IMG/VR virus record: IMGVR_UViG_3300048587_000624
Span: 1 to 20,050 of that record
Strand: one strand, 5' to 3'
Source of the DNA: a virus
DNA: 20,050 nucleotides
Each line of letters begins with the position of its first letter. Position 1 is the first letter of the stretch. The translations under genes were made by a program, and so were the position numbers. The notes under the pieces were generated by a model, which was given only the letters and a program-made list of their open reading frames with translations, was not told where the DNA came from and searched no databases. Below, one piece after another: positions 73 through 14,840 of the stretch.

Positions 73-1692
73 CTACCTGAGCCTGATGCGGTGGTGCTCT
101 GGAATCGAAATCGAGTCCCCGCAACCAATTTCAGAAACGCCGATCGCTTTCAAGAGCAGGCGCCCGGGATCCACGGAGAAGGTGGCCCAGGCGCCTTCGT
201 CGTTTTGGGAGATGGAGATCTCGCCGAAGAAGGCGCGCAGCGCCGGCCTGGCCTGCTCGATGTCACCGTTGAGGGCGGTCTCGATGGCGAGCAGCTGGCG
301 ACGGTAGCGGGCCATGAGGTCATCGATCTTCAGCTCGGCGCCGGGCTTCCTGGGCGCCAGGCGGCTGGCCAGCTCCATCCTGTTGGCTTCAGCGGCCTTC
401 AGGCGCGCCGTCAGAGCTTCGGAATGGCCCATGGCTGCAATGGCATCCACCAGGCGGGCGATCTCCTTGTCCAGGCCTGCTAGGGCAGCCTTGGCGGCGC
501 AGGAGGCCTCCGCGGCGGTTCTTTGGCGCCTGGCCAGCACCACCCCCACCTCTTTCCGCAGCTTGACCACCGCGGCCGGGGCGAGCAGCTCGGCCCGGAC
601 CACCGCCATCAGGCGCCGCTCGGTGGCCGTGCGGCCCACACTGACCCCGGTGCAGACAGATGCCCCCCGGTCCTTGTGGATGCCGCAGCCGTATTTATGG
701 CTGTTGATGGCGATCACGGCACCGCCGCAGATCCCGCACTTCATCAGACCGCCCAGGAGGGTCCGCGGCCGCGGGCCGCTGCCCTTGCCACCGTTGCCCA
801 TCCGGCCGCCGTCCATGCGCGCCCTGGCTGCCGCCCAGAGATCGTCCGGCAGGATTCGCAGCTCCGGGCGCTCCTCGACCATCCATTCATGTCGCGGCCG
901 GTCCAGGCGCGTGCGCTTCTTCGTTTCCGGGTGGATCACCCACTTCGATCGATTCCAGATGTACCGGCCGACGTAGAGCTCATTGTTCAGGACGCCGCTG
1001 CCCTTGAGCGGGCTGCCGTAGAGCGCCGAGACCGCCCAGGTGCCGCCGCGGCCGGTCTGGACGCCGAGGCGGTTGAGCTCGGCCGCGATGCGCTGGCAGC
1101 TCCAGCCGTCGGCGTACCGTTCGAAGATCCAGCGCACCCAGCCGGCCTGATCCTCGACCACCTCGAGCTTGCGCACCTGGCACGCCTCGATCGACCGATA
1201 TCCGTAGGACATCCCGCCGGCGTGGCCGCCGCGGCACACCTGGCCGGTGAGGCCGCGGTGAGTCTTCTTTGCCAGGGCACGGAGGTATTCCTGGTTCACG
1301 GCGCCGTAGACCACCCGTGGCAGTTCGCGCCCCTCGTGCAGCGTGTCGTAGCCGTCCGAGATGCCGATGATGCGGATGCCGGCGAACTCCAGCCCGCGGA
1401 TCACCTGCTCCTGGTCGATGATGTCGCGCCAGCAGCGGTCCAGGCACTCGATGATCAGCACGTCGAACTCGCCGCGATGGGCCGCCTCGAGCATGGCGCG
1501 GCCGCCCGGGCGCTGGATGGTCGGCACCGATGCCGAGATCTCGCGGTCGGAGAAGCGCAAGCCTATCTCGATGCCCAGCGCCGCCGCCCGCTGGTCCTGC
1601 AGACGTTCCTGGTCGTCGATCGAGGTGTCGCGCTGGTTATCCGAGCTGTACCGGCTGTAGCTGGCCGCGCGTTGAGTGTGCGAGGTTGTCAT
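73..1692 (-). CDS. Large serine recombinase (phage integrase/excisionase type)
   Basis: This 539-aa protein has the architecture of a large serine recombinase. The N-terminal resolvase fold has Y12-S-R-Y-S16-S-D-N-Q20, where S16 aligns with the catalytic serine of the usual YxRxS motif, and the ECLDRCWRD segment carries active-site arginines R86 and R89. A Recombinase domain follows (GYRSI and onward), then a zinc beta-ribbon (MKCGICGG, later GCGIHK and a further Cys), a charged helical region likely to form a coiled coil, and a C-terminal tail. Large serine recombinases cut and rejoin attP and attB through a phosphoserine link. I chose ATG at 1692 because the resolvase motif follows at once and an AGGAT lies about 11 nt upstream. 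The upstream in-frame extension is arginine-rich and lies in a neighbouring ORF. It is the last gene of the leftward operon, so it may be expressed on induction. Confidence 0.93.
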   Translation of the reverse strand: MTTSHTQRAASYSRYSSDNQRDTSIDDQERLQDQRAAALGIEIGLRFSDREISASVPTIQRPGGRAMLEAAHRGEFDVLIIECLDRCWRDIIDQEQVIRGLEFAGIRIIGISDGYDTLHEGRELPRVVYGAVNQEYLRALAKKTHRGLTGQVCRGGHAGGMSYGYRSIEACQVRKLEVVEDQAGWVRWIFERYADGWSCQRIAAELNRLGVQTGRGGTWAVSALYGSPLKGSGVLNNELYVGRYIWNRSKWVIHPETKKRTRLDRPRHEWMVEERPELRILPDDLWAAARARMDGGRMGNGGKGSGPRPRTLLGGLMKCGICGGAVIAINSHKYGCGIHKDRGASVCTGVSVGRTATERRLMAVVRAELLAPAAVVKLRKEVGVVLARRQRTAAEASCAAKAALAGLDKEIARLVDAIAAMGHSEALTARLKAAEANRMELASRLAPRKPGAELKIDDLMARYRRQLLAIETALNGDIEQARPALRAFFGEISISQNDEGAWATFSVDPGRLLLKAIGVSEIGCGDSISIPEHHRIRLR

Positions 1693-1813
1693 GTGTAACA
1701 GTATCCTGCGCCGGCGCCGGGGACTCAAGGGCCGCCAGCTCGTCAAGATATTCCGCCACGATCCGCTCGGCGAGGATCTCGATGAGGCGATCGACGGCGT
1801 CGGCGCGGGTCAT
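1637..1813 (-). CDS. Small protein overlapping the recombinase start
   Basis: A 58-aa ORF starts 4 nt after the methylase stop (TGACTCAATG) and overlaps the first 56 nt of the recombinase gene in another frame. The first 30 residues (MTRADAVDRLIEILAERIVA and onward) look like a real amphipathic helical protein. The C-terminal half lies in the overlap and is low in complexity. There is no strong ribosome binding site, so translation would rely on coupling to the upstream methylase. I do not recognise the family. Its position suggests a cofactor of the recombinase, such as a directionality factor, or a coupling peptide that helps translate it, but no motif shows this. Confidence 0.55.
   Translation of the reverse strand: MTRADAVDRLIEILAERIVAEYLDELAALESPAPAQDTVTHDNLAHSTRGQLQPVQLG
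1692..1702 (-). promoter_or_regulatory. ACTGTTACACA site at recombinase start codon
   Basis: Read on the minus strand this 11-mer is ACTGTTACACA. It matches the AGTGTTACACA site in the switch region (13768-13778) at 10 of 11 positions and shares TGTTACAC with the site at 14177-14187. It ends on the A of the recombinase ATG. It may be an operator, or a DNA site shared by the regulatory circuit. Binding is not shown. Confidence 0.4.
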
Positions 1814-12579: not shown

Positions 12580-12870
12580 CTAGCCGGTGTTGAGAGCCAT
12601 GGCGCGCGGGTGGAGGGATTCCATGGGCAACTCCAACTGGTTCTTCTCGGCCGCCTTCACCGCCGGCGAGCGCGGCGAGAGCGGGATGAAGACCTTAGGA
12701 TTCGGCGTCATCGACGGCGCGATGGTGCGCACCGCCGCGGTGTGCGCCACCCAGGTGTGGGCGCACTCGATGTTCTGGCACTGCAGGTGGTGCTCCACCA
12801 CGGACTCGCTCATGGCCCGGCTGGTGCGGATCTTCGCCGTCTGGCCGCAGTGGGGGCACTTGATCCTCAT
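12580..12870 (-). CDS. Ogr/Delta-like zinc-finger late transcription activator
   Basis: A 96-aa protein with cysteines C5, C8, C31 and C36, giving C-X2-C-X22-C-X4-C, the exact spacing of the P2 Ogr and P4 Delta activators. CPHCGQTAKIRTSR and LQCQNIECAHTWVAHTAAVR match the family pattern closely. Ogr/Delta proteins bind one zinc and activate phage late promoters by contacting the RNA polymerase alpha subunit. It would be expected to turn on the tail operon whose end is at 16411-20050. In P2 the ogr gene follows gene D; here it is in the early operon. The C-terminal extension (PNPKVFIPLSPRSPAVKAAE and onward) is longer than in P2. The ATG at 12870 overlaps the stop of the 30-aa peptide. Confidence 0.92.
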   Translation of the reverse strand: MRIKCPHCGQTAKIRTSRAMSESVVEHHLQCQNIECAHTWVAHTAAVRTIAPSMTPNPKVFIPLSPRSPAVKAAEKNQLELPMESLHPRAMALNTG

Positions 12871-12959
12871 GCGAGCGCCACCAGCAGGCCTACGAGGAGG
12901 GCCGCGATCGCCAGCGCGGCGAGGCCGGCTGCGAGCCCTGACAGGATGGCCCTGATCAC
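12867..12959 (-). CDS. 30-residue hydrophobic membrane peptide
   Basis: A GTG-initiated ORF of 30 codons encodes a peptide beginning MIRAILSGLAAGLAALAIAA, then LLVGLLVALA: one arginine near the N terminus and an unbroken hydrophobic helix. It starts in a GTGA overlap with the stop of the YdaT-like gene and ends in an ATGA overlap with the Ogr-like ATG. A GGGAG lies about 7 nt before the GTG. The exact fit between two genes and the helix-forming composition support it as a real small membrane protein. Possible roles are a toxin-like, holin-like or regulatory peptide; none can be chosen from sequence. Confidence 0.62.
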   Translation of the reverse strand: MIRAILSGLAAGLAALAIAALLVGLLVALA

Positions 12960-13531
12960 GGCTTTGCTCCCGCTGCGAGCGCGGACTCGACAGCCTCCAG
13001 CATGCGGTTGCGCGCGGCGATGTCCTCGGCGATCTCGCGCTGCGCGATGCGCAGTTCCTCGGGCGACGCCCCGTCGAGCAGATCCGCCGCCGCCACCTCA
13101 GCCTGGGCGCCCTCCGTCAGCATGGAGCGGAAGAGCGGGCCGATGGCCTCGATGGAAGCCTCGCCGCCGACCGTGCGGCAGGCGATGCCGAAGGGCCGCA
13201 GCATCTCGTCCAGGGCGTGCAGGCGCAGCCCGTCCGGCAGCGCCGCCAGGATCGAGGGGATGAAGTTCGCCGGCAGGTGGTTGCGGTCCTTGGTGACGTC
13301 GTCCAGCCAGCGGAAGATGCGGTCGGCGTTGACCCGCATGCGCTCGAAGGTGTCGCGCGTCGGCGGGTCGAAGGCGATGCCGGTGGCGCGCGGGCCGCCG
13401 ATGCGCTCATGCGCCTGCACGATCATGCCGGCCACCGACTCCCGGCTCCAGCCGTTGTCGCGCCGCCACTCCTCGACGGCGCCGCGCAGCGTGGCGATCC
13501 AGGTGGCGGGAATGTGCGTGCGATGCTGCAT
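12956..13531 (-). CDS. YdaT/CII-like phage regulator
   Basis: A 191-aa protein. The first two thirds resemble the YdaT family from lambdoid prophages: a helical start with AVEEWRRDNGWSRESVAGMI, then ERMRVNADRIFRWLDDVTKD, then LPANFIPSILAALPDGLRLH. A charged helical C terminus follows. YdaT was named as a toxin but in E. coli prophage CP-933P it acts as a CII-type transcription regulator. Its position as second gene of the leftward operon, after a small DNA-binding protein next to the repressor, matches the ydaS-ydaT arrangement. The start at 13531 has a GGGAG upstream but with longer than usual spacing. The family match is by eye and moderately sure. Confidence 0.7.
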   Translation of the reverse strand: MQHRTHIPATWIATLRGAVEEWRRDNGWSRESVAGMIVQAHERIGGPRATGIAFDPPTRDTFERMRVNADRIFRWLDDVTKDRNHLPANFIPSILAALPDGLRLHALDEMLRPFGIACRTVGGEASIEAIGPLFRSMLTEGAQAEVAAADLLDGASPEELRIAQREIAEDIAARNRMLEAVESALAAGAKP

Positions 13532-13551
13532 GACCTGTCGGCTCCCGGTGT

Positions 13552-13752
13552 CTAGGCTTTGGAAGGTGCGACGTCGGCCGCGACGAGCGGCAGGCCGGCC
13601 AGGTAGGCCTCGCGAGCGAGGGATGACCTCGAGCAGTGCTTCGCCTTGGCAATGCGTTTTGCATCGTCCAATTCGCCTGGCATGAGGCGGAGGGCGATGG
13701 GCTTTGTGGTGACAACGCCCTTCGGGTTGCGAGAGGTTGTGCGCTTAGGCAT
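13552..13752 (-). CDS. Ribbon-helix-helix DNA-binding protein (probable Cro-like role)
   Basis: A 66-aa protein with the pattern of an Arc/MetJ-type ribbon-helix-helix fold: beta strand KPIALRLM (17-24), helix GELDDAKRIAKAKH, turn at CSRSS, and helix LAREAYLAG. It has a basic N terminus (MPKRTTSRNPKG). It is the first gene of the leftward operon, directly after the sigma70-like promoter and opposite the CI-like repressor. That is where a Cro-type early repressor sits in lambdoid switches. The start at 13752 was selected because upstream in-frame sequence runs through the promoter. It may bind one of the operator sites in 13753-13834. Confidence 0.78.
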   Translation of the reverse strand: MPKRTTSRNPKGVVTTKPIALRLMPGELDDAKRIAKAKHCSRSSLAREAYLAGLPLVAADVAPSKA

Positions 13753-13767
13753 AGTGCATTCCGTATC

Positions 13768-13778
13768 AGTGTTACACA
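13768..13778. promoter_or_regulatory. AGTGTTACACA site at the leftward transcription start
   Basis: An imperfect palindrome (GTGT-T-ACAC core) that covers the expected start of leftward transcription, just past the -10. It recurs as AGTGTTACACT at 14177-14187 and as ACTGTTACACA at the recombinase start (1692-1702). It likely belongs to a second DNA-binding protein distinct from the one recognising GGG-N6-CCC. Confidence 0.55.
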
Positions 13779-13780
13779 AC

Positions 13781-13809
13781 AGAATAGGGGGAAATTTCCC
13801 GGATGTCAA
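13781..13809 (-). promoter_or_regulatory. Leftward early promoter, sigma70 type
   Basis: On the minus strand a perfect -35 TTGACA (plus 13809-13804) is followed by a 17-nt spacer and a -10 TATTCT (plus 13786-13781). Transcription should start near 13774, about 22 nt before the ribbon-helix-helix gene ATG. The palindrome GGGAAATTTCCC fills the spacer, so a bound dimer would block polymerase directly. This is the best promoter match I can see in the window. Confidence 0.82.
13789..13800. promoter_or_regulatory. Operator candidate GGGAAATTTCCC
   Basis: A perfect 12-bp palindrome lying exactly between the -35 and -10 of the leftward promoter. It has the size and symmetry of a dimeric repressor site. 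A related GGG-N6-CCC site lies 31 bp away, centre to centre, which is close to three helical turns. Confidence 0.7.
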
Positions 13810-13819
13810 CCAATGATGG

Positions 13820-13831
13820 GGGTTTTTTCCC
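13820..13831. promoter_or_regulatory. Second operator candidate GGG-T6-CCC
   Basis: The 12-mer GGGTTTTTTCCC repeats the GGG-N6-CCC plan of the palindrome at 13789-13800. It sits upstream of the leftward -35 and ends 3 bp before the CI-like repressor ATG, so binding could control repressor synthesis as well as the leftward promoter. It is only half as symmetric in its centre, as expected for a weaker site. Confidence 0.55.
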
Positions 13832-13834
13832 GAA

Positions 13835-14176
13835 ATGGGCGCAAGGCTTAAATCCGAGCGGAAGCGGCTCGGGTTTTCGCAGGAGGCGCTCTGCAAGCTG
13901 ATCGGCGTCAAGGACCCGAAAACGCTGCGCAGTTGGGAAAGCGGGGCGACGGCTCCCACATTGTTCGACCTGGCCGAGTTCGTCTCGGCGGGCGCGGATC
14001 TGATCTATATCGTCTCTGGAGACCGCGCCGTACCGGCGGTGACCATGGAGCGCACCGCCTACGAAAGGCCGGCCTATCGCGTGGCCGCGGCCGTCGCGGA
14101 AATGGCGCTGTCGCAGGAGGATGCCGAACTGCTGCTGGCCATGGCGCGGCGGCTAGCCAAGCCTGGGCACGAATGA
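13835..14176 (+). CDS. CI-like XRE-family repressor, short form
   Basis: A 113-aa protein whose N-terminal 60 residues form an XRE-type helix-turn-helix: MGARLKSERKRLGFSQEALC, then KLIGVKDPKTLRSWESGATA, then LFDLAEFVSAGADLIYIVSG. These are usual features of phage CI/Cro-type repressors. The C terminus is a short helical tail (VAAAVAEMALSQEDAELLLA), probably for dimerisation. There is no S24 LexA-like peptidase domain, so RecA-stimulated self-cleavage is not expected and induction must use another route, such as an antirepressor. The ATG is the only start in this frame downstream of a stop at 13814. There is no clear Shine-Dalgarno, and an operator candidate lies 3 bp upstream. Confidence 0.88.
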   Translation: MGARLKSERKRLGFSQEALCKLIGVKDPKTLRSWESGATAPTLFDLAEFVSAGADLIYIVSGDRAVPAVTMERTAYERPAYRVAAAVAEMALSQEDAELLLAMARRLAKPGHE

Positions 14177-14187
14177 AGTGTTACACT
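14177..14187. promoter_or_regulatory. AGTGTTACACT palindrome after the repressor gene
   Basis: An 11-bp palindrome around a central T starts directly after the repressor stop codon and lies 33 bp before the BRCT-protein ATG. It shares 10 of 11 bases with the site at 13768-13778. AT-rich sequence follows (TAAATAAATA), so an operator-controlled promoter for the accessory genes is possible. Confidence 0.5.
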
Positions 14188-14219
14188 AAATAAATACGCC
14201 AAAGGCATAGGGAGTTGTC

Positions 14220-14840
14220 ATGGTCGATTTAGGCGGTGAACGTACCAATTTCAATGCCAAGCGCCGTTTGGCCAGGGCGGTCGATCAACTCATCGGCATT
14301 TGTGCCGGCATCGCGGCGGATGGTGTGTGTAACGACGTCGAAGTTTTATTTCTTTCGACGTGGCTTGCTGAGAATATTGAGGTTTCCAATCAATTCCCAG
14401 GAGATCAGGTAGCCCGCCGCGTGCGGGCGATTCTCTCCGATGGGGTCGTGTCTGAGGAGGAACGCACAGACCTGCTGGAAACCCTGCAGCAGATCTCCGG
14501 CAACAGGTTCAATGAAACCGGCGCAGCTGCGGCCGAGGCGGCTGCAGTCCCGGCCGATGATGTGGACAGCATTCACTTTGTCGAGCGGCGATTTTGCTTC
14601 ACCGGAAAATTCGCCTACGGCCCGCGCAAGAAATGCCAGGATGCGGTCATGGCCAGGGGCGCGATTATCGATGACGACGTGACGAAGCAGACGCATTACC
14701 TCGTGCTCGGTGCCTTCGTTTCTCCGGATTGGAAGCATGAGAGCTACGGCAGAAAAATCGAGCGGGCCCATGCGTTGCGCGGGCAGGGGGGTGGGCCCCT
14801 CATTATTACAGAAGAAGTCTGGCTTTCCGCTCTCTCATAG
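14220..14840 (+). CDS. BRCT-domain protein with TerB-like N-terminal helices
   Basis: A 206-aa protein. Residues about 15-95 are helical with the pattern VDQLIGICAGIAADGVCNDV, then LFLSTWLAENIEVS and SDGVVSEEERTDLLETL, resembling TerB-like acidic helical domains with paired DG-type loops. An Ala-rich linker follows (100-112). Residues 120-205 are a BRCT domain like that of bacterial DNA ligase: FCFTGKFAYGPRKKCQDAVM, then GAIIDDDVTKQTHYLVLGAF, and the conserved Trp in EEVWLSAL (W201). GGGAG lies 5 nt before the ATG. BRCT domains bind DNA ends or phosphorylated partners. Related proteins occur as accessory genes beside prophage repressors. No ligase domain is present, and any DNA-sensing or defence role is inference. 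Confidence 0.85.
   Translation: MVDLGGERTNFNAKRRLARAVDQLIGICAGIAADGVCNDVEVLFLSTWLAENIEVSNQFPGDQVARRVRAILSDGVVSEEERTDLLETLQQISGNRFNETGAAAAEAAAVPADDVDSIHFVERRFCFTGKFAYGPRKKCQDAVMARGAIIDDDVTKQTHYLVLGAFVSPDWKHESYGRKIERAHALRGQGGGPLIITEEVWLSALS

Follow-up and report, generated by a model that had tools for sequence, protein, structure and literature searches.

The locus described here is probably a lysis-lysogeny switch from a temperate phage. An XRE-type repressor acting at two candidate operators, O1 and O2, would shut the early promoter PL, and a small Arc-like ribbon-helix-helix (RHH) protein would act as its antagonist from a box at the start site. It lies in a virus record of 20,050 bases, which was analysed whole and is referred to below as the window. 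The layout of the switch is conserved in many related phages, whereas the recognition sequence differs from phage to phage. The initial annotation had spoken of a compact genetic switch, a description that the comparison of about 40 loci supports, and all the elements that it named were found where it had put them or at most one base away; the RHH start codon, which it placed at 13753, is at 13752.

Promoter, operators and genes in the window

The gene driven by PL, on the minus strand, is that of the RHH protein, which heads the early operon and faces away from the repressor gene (Table 1). A 900-aa primase comes next in this leftward operon after the three genes listed, and genes for a DNA methyltransferase and for a serine integrase lie further left. 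The RHH protein has a single weak Pfam match. Its structural model places helices at residues 25-38 and 42-52 behind an extended stretch, which is the order of the RHH fold, and a Foldseek search with this model returned weak hits including Arc, CopG, and AmrZ, with RHH proteins appearing only at E values above 0.9 and none of them significant. As for the repressor, only helix-turn-helix (HTH) families match it, with no peptidase domain and, in particular, no C-terminal S24 autocleavage domain. When solved structures were searched with its family profile, the P22 C2 and 434 repressors matched, and the HTH part of its model has a pLDDT of about 90. Used as a query against viral contigs, the repressor protein matched a single, near-identical contig.

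Table 1. Positions of the switch elements, candidate boxes, and early genes in the window
Feature	Position	Strand	Remarks
PL -35 hexamer	13804..13809	minus	TTGACA; early (lytic) promoter; sequence match
PL spacer, 17 bases	13803-13787	minus	TCCGGGAAATTTCCCCC; between -35 and -10
PL -10 hexamer	13781..13786	minus	TATTCT; sequence match
O1, candidate primary repressor operator	13787..13802	none	GGGAAATTTCCC core 13789-13800; inside PL spacer
O2, candidate second repressor operator	13818..13833	none	GGGTTTTTTCCC core 13820-13831; directly ahead of repressor start codon
RHH box	13768..13778	none	AGTGTTACACA; overlies predicted PL transcription start
Second RHH box	14177..14187	none	AGTGTTACACT, perfect; directly after repressor stop codon, ahead of BRCT-like gene at 14220
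Possible third RHH box	1692..1702	none	TGTGTAACAGT, looser, weaker match; abuts serine integrase start codon
Arc-like RHH protein, 66 aa	13552..13752	minus	phrog_3431, E=4.7e-14; first early-operon gene
CII-like protein	12956..13531	minus	phrog_163, E=1.1e-18; second early-operon gene
Ogr/Delta-like zinc-finger late activator	12580..12870	minus	PF04606, E=2.9e-16; third early-operon gene
XRE/HTH_3 repressor, 113 aa	13835..14176	plus	PF01381, E=3.4e-8; 33.8 bits vs curated cut-off 23

The leftward TTGACA-N17-TATTCT promoter with a palindromic spacer, as originally described, was recovered to the base. It is the sole promoter-like match between 13500 and 14300 and the only promoter in the whole window that scores at least 10 of 12, and its spacer holds a perfect 12-bp palindrome. 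In 60 Markov windows, promoters reaching this score occurred at 0.22 per window, and none of them had a 12-bp palindrome in the spacer. Transcription from PL is predicted to start at about 13774, 7 nt beyond the -10.

The palindrome in the spacer forms the core of O1. The GGG-N6-CCC partner that had been noticed 31 bp away beside the repressor start is indeed present there as the core of O2, and the offset between the two cores corresponds to about three helical turns. The closest second match to O1 sits at exactly this distance (p=0.006), and both candidate operators flank the -35 box of PL. GGG-N6-CCC was rejected as a rare motif, being present 12 times in the window versus 12.8 expected. 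Since the motif by itself occurs at chance frequency, the case for the operators rests on palindromic symmetry, on where the palindrome sits, and on the spacing, a signal that the sequences of the relatives confirm.

The other type of site is an RHH box, and matches to its pattern WSTGTNACASW occur three times in the window against 0.05 expected. The first covers the predicted start of PL, in agreement with the earlier reading of a site over the probable start of transcription, which had missed the two further copies. The presence of several boxes hints at a small RHH regulon, and the position of the one at the integrase start suggests that the RHH protein may also govern integration. Among 18 representative loci, GTGTNACAC is kept in seven and comes after the -10 in the window and in the loci more closely related to it, GTGAAGCAC is the box of a second group of four, and the KS5-like phages have no clear palindromic RHH box. 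The record of L026 (L097) has two box matches, the second of which is a perfect TGTGTTACACA at 774-784, on the start codon of a DNA adenine methyltransferase; it has no box at the place corresponding to 14177, so that site is not a conserved element. The sequence GTGTTACAC is also found directly ahead of the -35 of a different switch in L017, L018, and L020, where the first gene does not encode an RHH protein, which means that this palindrome is not limited to phages of the RHH kind.

What the sequences show is the sites, where they lie, how far they are conserved, and which protein each type of site follows in evolution. From this we infer how the switch would work, including binding by the two proteins, any cooperativity, the direction in which each effect acts, and where the repressor promoter lies. 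Dimers of the XRE repressor would occupy O1 in the PL spacer and O2 beyond the -35, and these two dimers, lying on one face of the DNA, would bracket the -35 and exclude RNA polymerase from PL. The early operon, from the RHH, CII-like, and Ogr-like genes to the primase and onward, would then be silent in the lysogen. Once PL fires, the small RHH protein would be made first and, binding to its box over the PL start, would curb its own operon and block expression of the repressor, as Cox or Cro does in other phages. The promoter of the repressor probably lies to the left and is aimed at PL, as in P2-type switches.

Conservation of the layout and expression of the repressor

A scan with RHH proteins yielded 41 viral loci, to which genome collections added two, and about 40 related phage and prophage loci were compared. 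In each locus, the best promoter ahead of the RHH gene was picked without use of the operator. The spacers of these promoters share little sequence, as seen in GTGGTCAAATGACCAC, ACACACCGATCGGTGTG, TTGATCAATCGATCAA, GTGAAGTTTTCTTCAC, and GTACCCAAATGGGTAC. Of 16 operator clusters, 12 nevertheless have a dyad near the middle of the spacer (each P<0.05; Fisher P ~1e-12, an optimistic value because the range for the dyad centre was set after some loci had been seen). The Mana-like subgroup (L029-L031, L036, L043, L049, L054) has no spacer dyad.

The spacing of 31 bp was taken from the window, and the other loci thus serve as a test of it. In 25 of 37 loci, the best upstream second match to the locus's own O1 falls at 30, 31, or 32 bp, as it does in 16 of the 23 less redundant representatives (nominal P ~4e-17). 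When the place of O2 is scored with the O1 of the same phage, the value is 5.7, against a mean of 1.3 with the O1 of other phages, which indicates that O2 is not a sequence common to all of them. O2 is weak or was not found in several loci (L044, L048, L063). The identical script was applied to prophages drawn later from the bacterial family and class of L072. The five among them with a strong RHH match that had not been used earlier (L074, L080, L081, L082, and L083, of which L080 is already counted among the 37) all have O2 at 31-32 bp, and two, L080 and L083, also have a significant spacer dyad. The remaining weak phrog_3431 matches are other proteins, several of them antitoxin-like (L077-L079, L092).

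Besides these relatives, scanning DNA for the operator pattern brought up two unrelated, divergent genes at about 8900-8950 of L066, where CGGGAAACTTCCCG lies behind TTGACA and a second copy, CGGGCTATTTCCCG, lies 31 bp off. The -10 is poor there, which makes this locus a lead only, possibly reflecting convergence on the same layout.

No obvious Shine-Dalgarno sequence precedes the repressor ATG at 13835, and on the plus strand of 13500-14300 no good repressor promoter was recognised, with no tidy -35 and -10 whether the two promoters are laid back to back or face to face. In L026, L027, and L071, the only ATG of the repressor frame lies inside the -35 of PL (TTGACAT, read backwards, is ATGTCAA), and the repressor mRNA must therefore begin to the left of it. 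In the window, between 13803 and 13835, this embedded ATG is offset from the repressor frame by one base, and the ATG at 13835 stands where L026 has ATC; the start codon has shifted in the window and is fluid across the family. In addition, a [GT]TATA element is found near the RHH start in 13 of 18 loci versus 0.9 expected. Together, the embedded ATGs and the conserved TATA element favour face-to-face promoters.

The main rival to this reading is a back-to-back layout as in lambda, in which a leaderless repressor mRNA would begin at the ATG at 13835, O1 would activate its transcription like OR2, and O2 would shut it off like OR3. The missing Shine-Dalgarno sequence would agree with this, the centre of O1 lies 40.5 bp upstream (-40.5), the usual position of a class II activator, and O2 is centred where the -10 of the repressor promoter would be. 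However, no -35 or -10 is recognisable there, and the start codon does not keep a constant distance from O1 among the loci (+8 in L026, L027, and L071, and mostly +31 elsewhere), so that one fixed activator geometry does not fit. The back-to-back layout is for these reasons considered unlikely, and the face-to-face arrangement is preferred.

The initial annotation correctly reported that the repressor lacks both a Shine-Dalgarno sequence and a peptidase domain; its view that expression and inactivation are unusual is not supported, both traits being ordinary. Lambda, too, makes a leaderless cI mRNA from PRM, and repressors without an autocleavage or peptidase domain, such as P2 C, are typical of P2-type switches. 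Lambda CI was the wrong yardstick for what is odd in this locus, the layout of which resembles P2-type switches (PMC7498355).

Regulators tracked by the two types of site

Each type of site tracks a different protein in evolution. Across 34 loci, the similarity of the spacer operators follows that of the repressor HTH after correction for the RHH protein (partial Mantel r=0.20, P=0.006), but not that of the RHH protein once the repressor is allowed for (r=-0.05, P=0.73). The reverse applies to the start-site box, which follows the RHH protein (r=0.48, P=0.0005) and not the repressor (r=-0.01, P=0.55), and part of either covariation may come from the linkage of adjacent sequences in mosaic phages. 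A natural swap is offered by L035, whose RHH protein is 94% like that of L032 and whose repressor is of the AP3 type, 84% like that of L056; its operator is 88% like that of L056 versus 50% like that of L032. Within the group of operators reading GTGGTC or GTGGGC, the recognition helix has KDA mostly with GTGGTC and KDT with GTGGGC, L061 being mixed. This covariation supports the earlier suggestion that the two classes of operator serve two regulators, an XRE/CI-like protein and an RHH protein.

It also makes it very improbable that both motif types are bound by a single regulator, whether RHH protein or repressor, with the second class being incidental. Such sharing could be imagined from the presence of both motif types within one stretch of 82 bp and from the fact that short palindromes can be shared, yet the two types evolve with different proteins, and near-identical RHH proteins go with very different spacer operators (L035/L032, L040/L036). 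Least probable of all is an autoregulated module of the toxin-antitoxin or plasmid type, for although RHH and XRE proteins are common as antitoxins and some of the weak phrog_3431 matches listed above are antitoxin-like, the locus stands at the head of an early operon of a phage, together with genes for CII-like and Ogr-like proteins and a primase, a serine integrase is encoded in the window, and the XRE gene carries the annotation of immunity repressor in named P2-like phages.

Comparison with known phage switches

In P2-type switches, the repressor operators lie over the lytic promoter, the operators of the antagonist are separate and near the start sites or the lysogenic promoter, and the lytic and lysogenic promoters stand face to face (PMC7498355). 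The two-regulator switch proposed here resembles those of P2 and 186 (Peduoviridae) in that its candidate repressor operator O1 lies over the lytic promoter, in the PL spacer, in that the candidate antagonist site at the predicted PL start is distinct from the repressor operators, and in the lack of a peptidase domain in the repressor. Unlike in P2-type phages, the putative antagonist is an Arc-like RHH protein (phrog_3431) and not a winged-helix recombination directionality factor such as Cox or Apl, and the operator is a dyad within the spacer with a partner 31 bp off. P2-type promoters are 40-60 bp apart, an arrangement that the embedded ATGs and the TATA element fit, but no repressor promoter was recognised.

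Named phages with this gene order are the Burkholderia P2-like phages AP3 and Mana (Aptresvirus) and KS5 and Carl1 (Kisquinquevirus). In each of them, the genes of an XRE repressor and of an Arc-like RHH protein diverge, and behind the RHH gene come at least one small gene and then an Ogr-like activator. Spacer operators are carried by loci of the AP3, KS5, and Carl1 types, the one in Carl1 itself being weak. The window differs from these phages in its operator sequences, its RHH box, and its serine integrase, and its second gene is CII-like (phrog_163) instead of the phrog_20051 of KS5. The AP3 paper gives promoter predictions, and no operators turned up when its text was searched by term (PMC5247547).

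With lambda, P22, and 434 the locus shares a repressor HTH that matches P22 C2 and the 434 repressor, symmetric half-sites around an A/T centre, and plausibly cooperative operator pairs. Different from them are the number of operators, two instead of three, and the repressor without a C-terminal peptidase domain. Moreover, CI and Cro of lambda-type phages share their operators, whereas the window has two unrelated motif classes and an antagonist with a site of its own. The Arc and Mnt proteins of P22, which act in the secondary immunity region (immI), are likewise small RHH regulators in a phage early region; the RHH gene of the window comes first, opposite the main repressor, and the likeness to them is at the profile level only.

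In sum, the switch would work like the P2 type, but its antagonist is not Cox or Apl and two lambda features are not found in it, and it is therefore filed as a variant rather than a member. The switch is real but fairly conventional, and the features that set it apart from the P2 type are the Arc-like RHH protein in place of Cox and the fixed 31-bp operator pair. In searches of the open-access literature, no earlier account of this pair came up. The broader proposal, in which we place slightly less than even confidence, is that of a distinct switch class, widespread in phages of Betaproteobacteria, with an operator in the early-promoter spacer, a partner three turns off, and an RHH protein replacing Cox or Cro.

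Because the position of the operator is fixed and only its letters vary, the operator specificity of new repressors could be read from sequence. The fixed geometry would make the immunity operator readable in each genome and the homo- and hetero-immunity groups predictable without experiments. The family also offers a natural series of matched pairs of helix-turn-helix and operator for the study of recognition rules, as in KDA/GTGGTC versus KDT/GTGGGC, and a case of an Arc-like protein seemingly doing the job of Cox.
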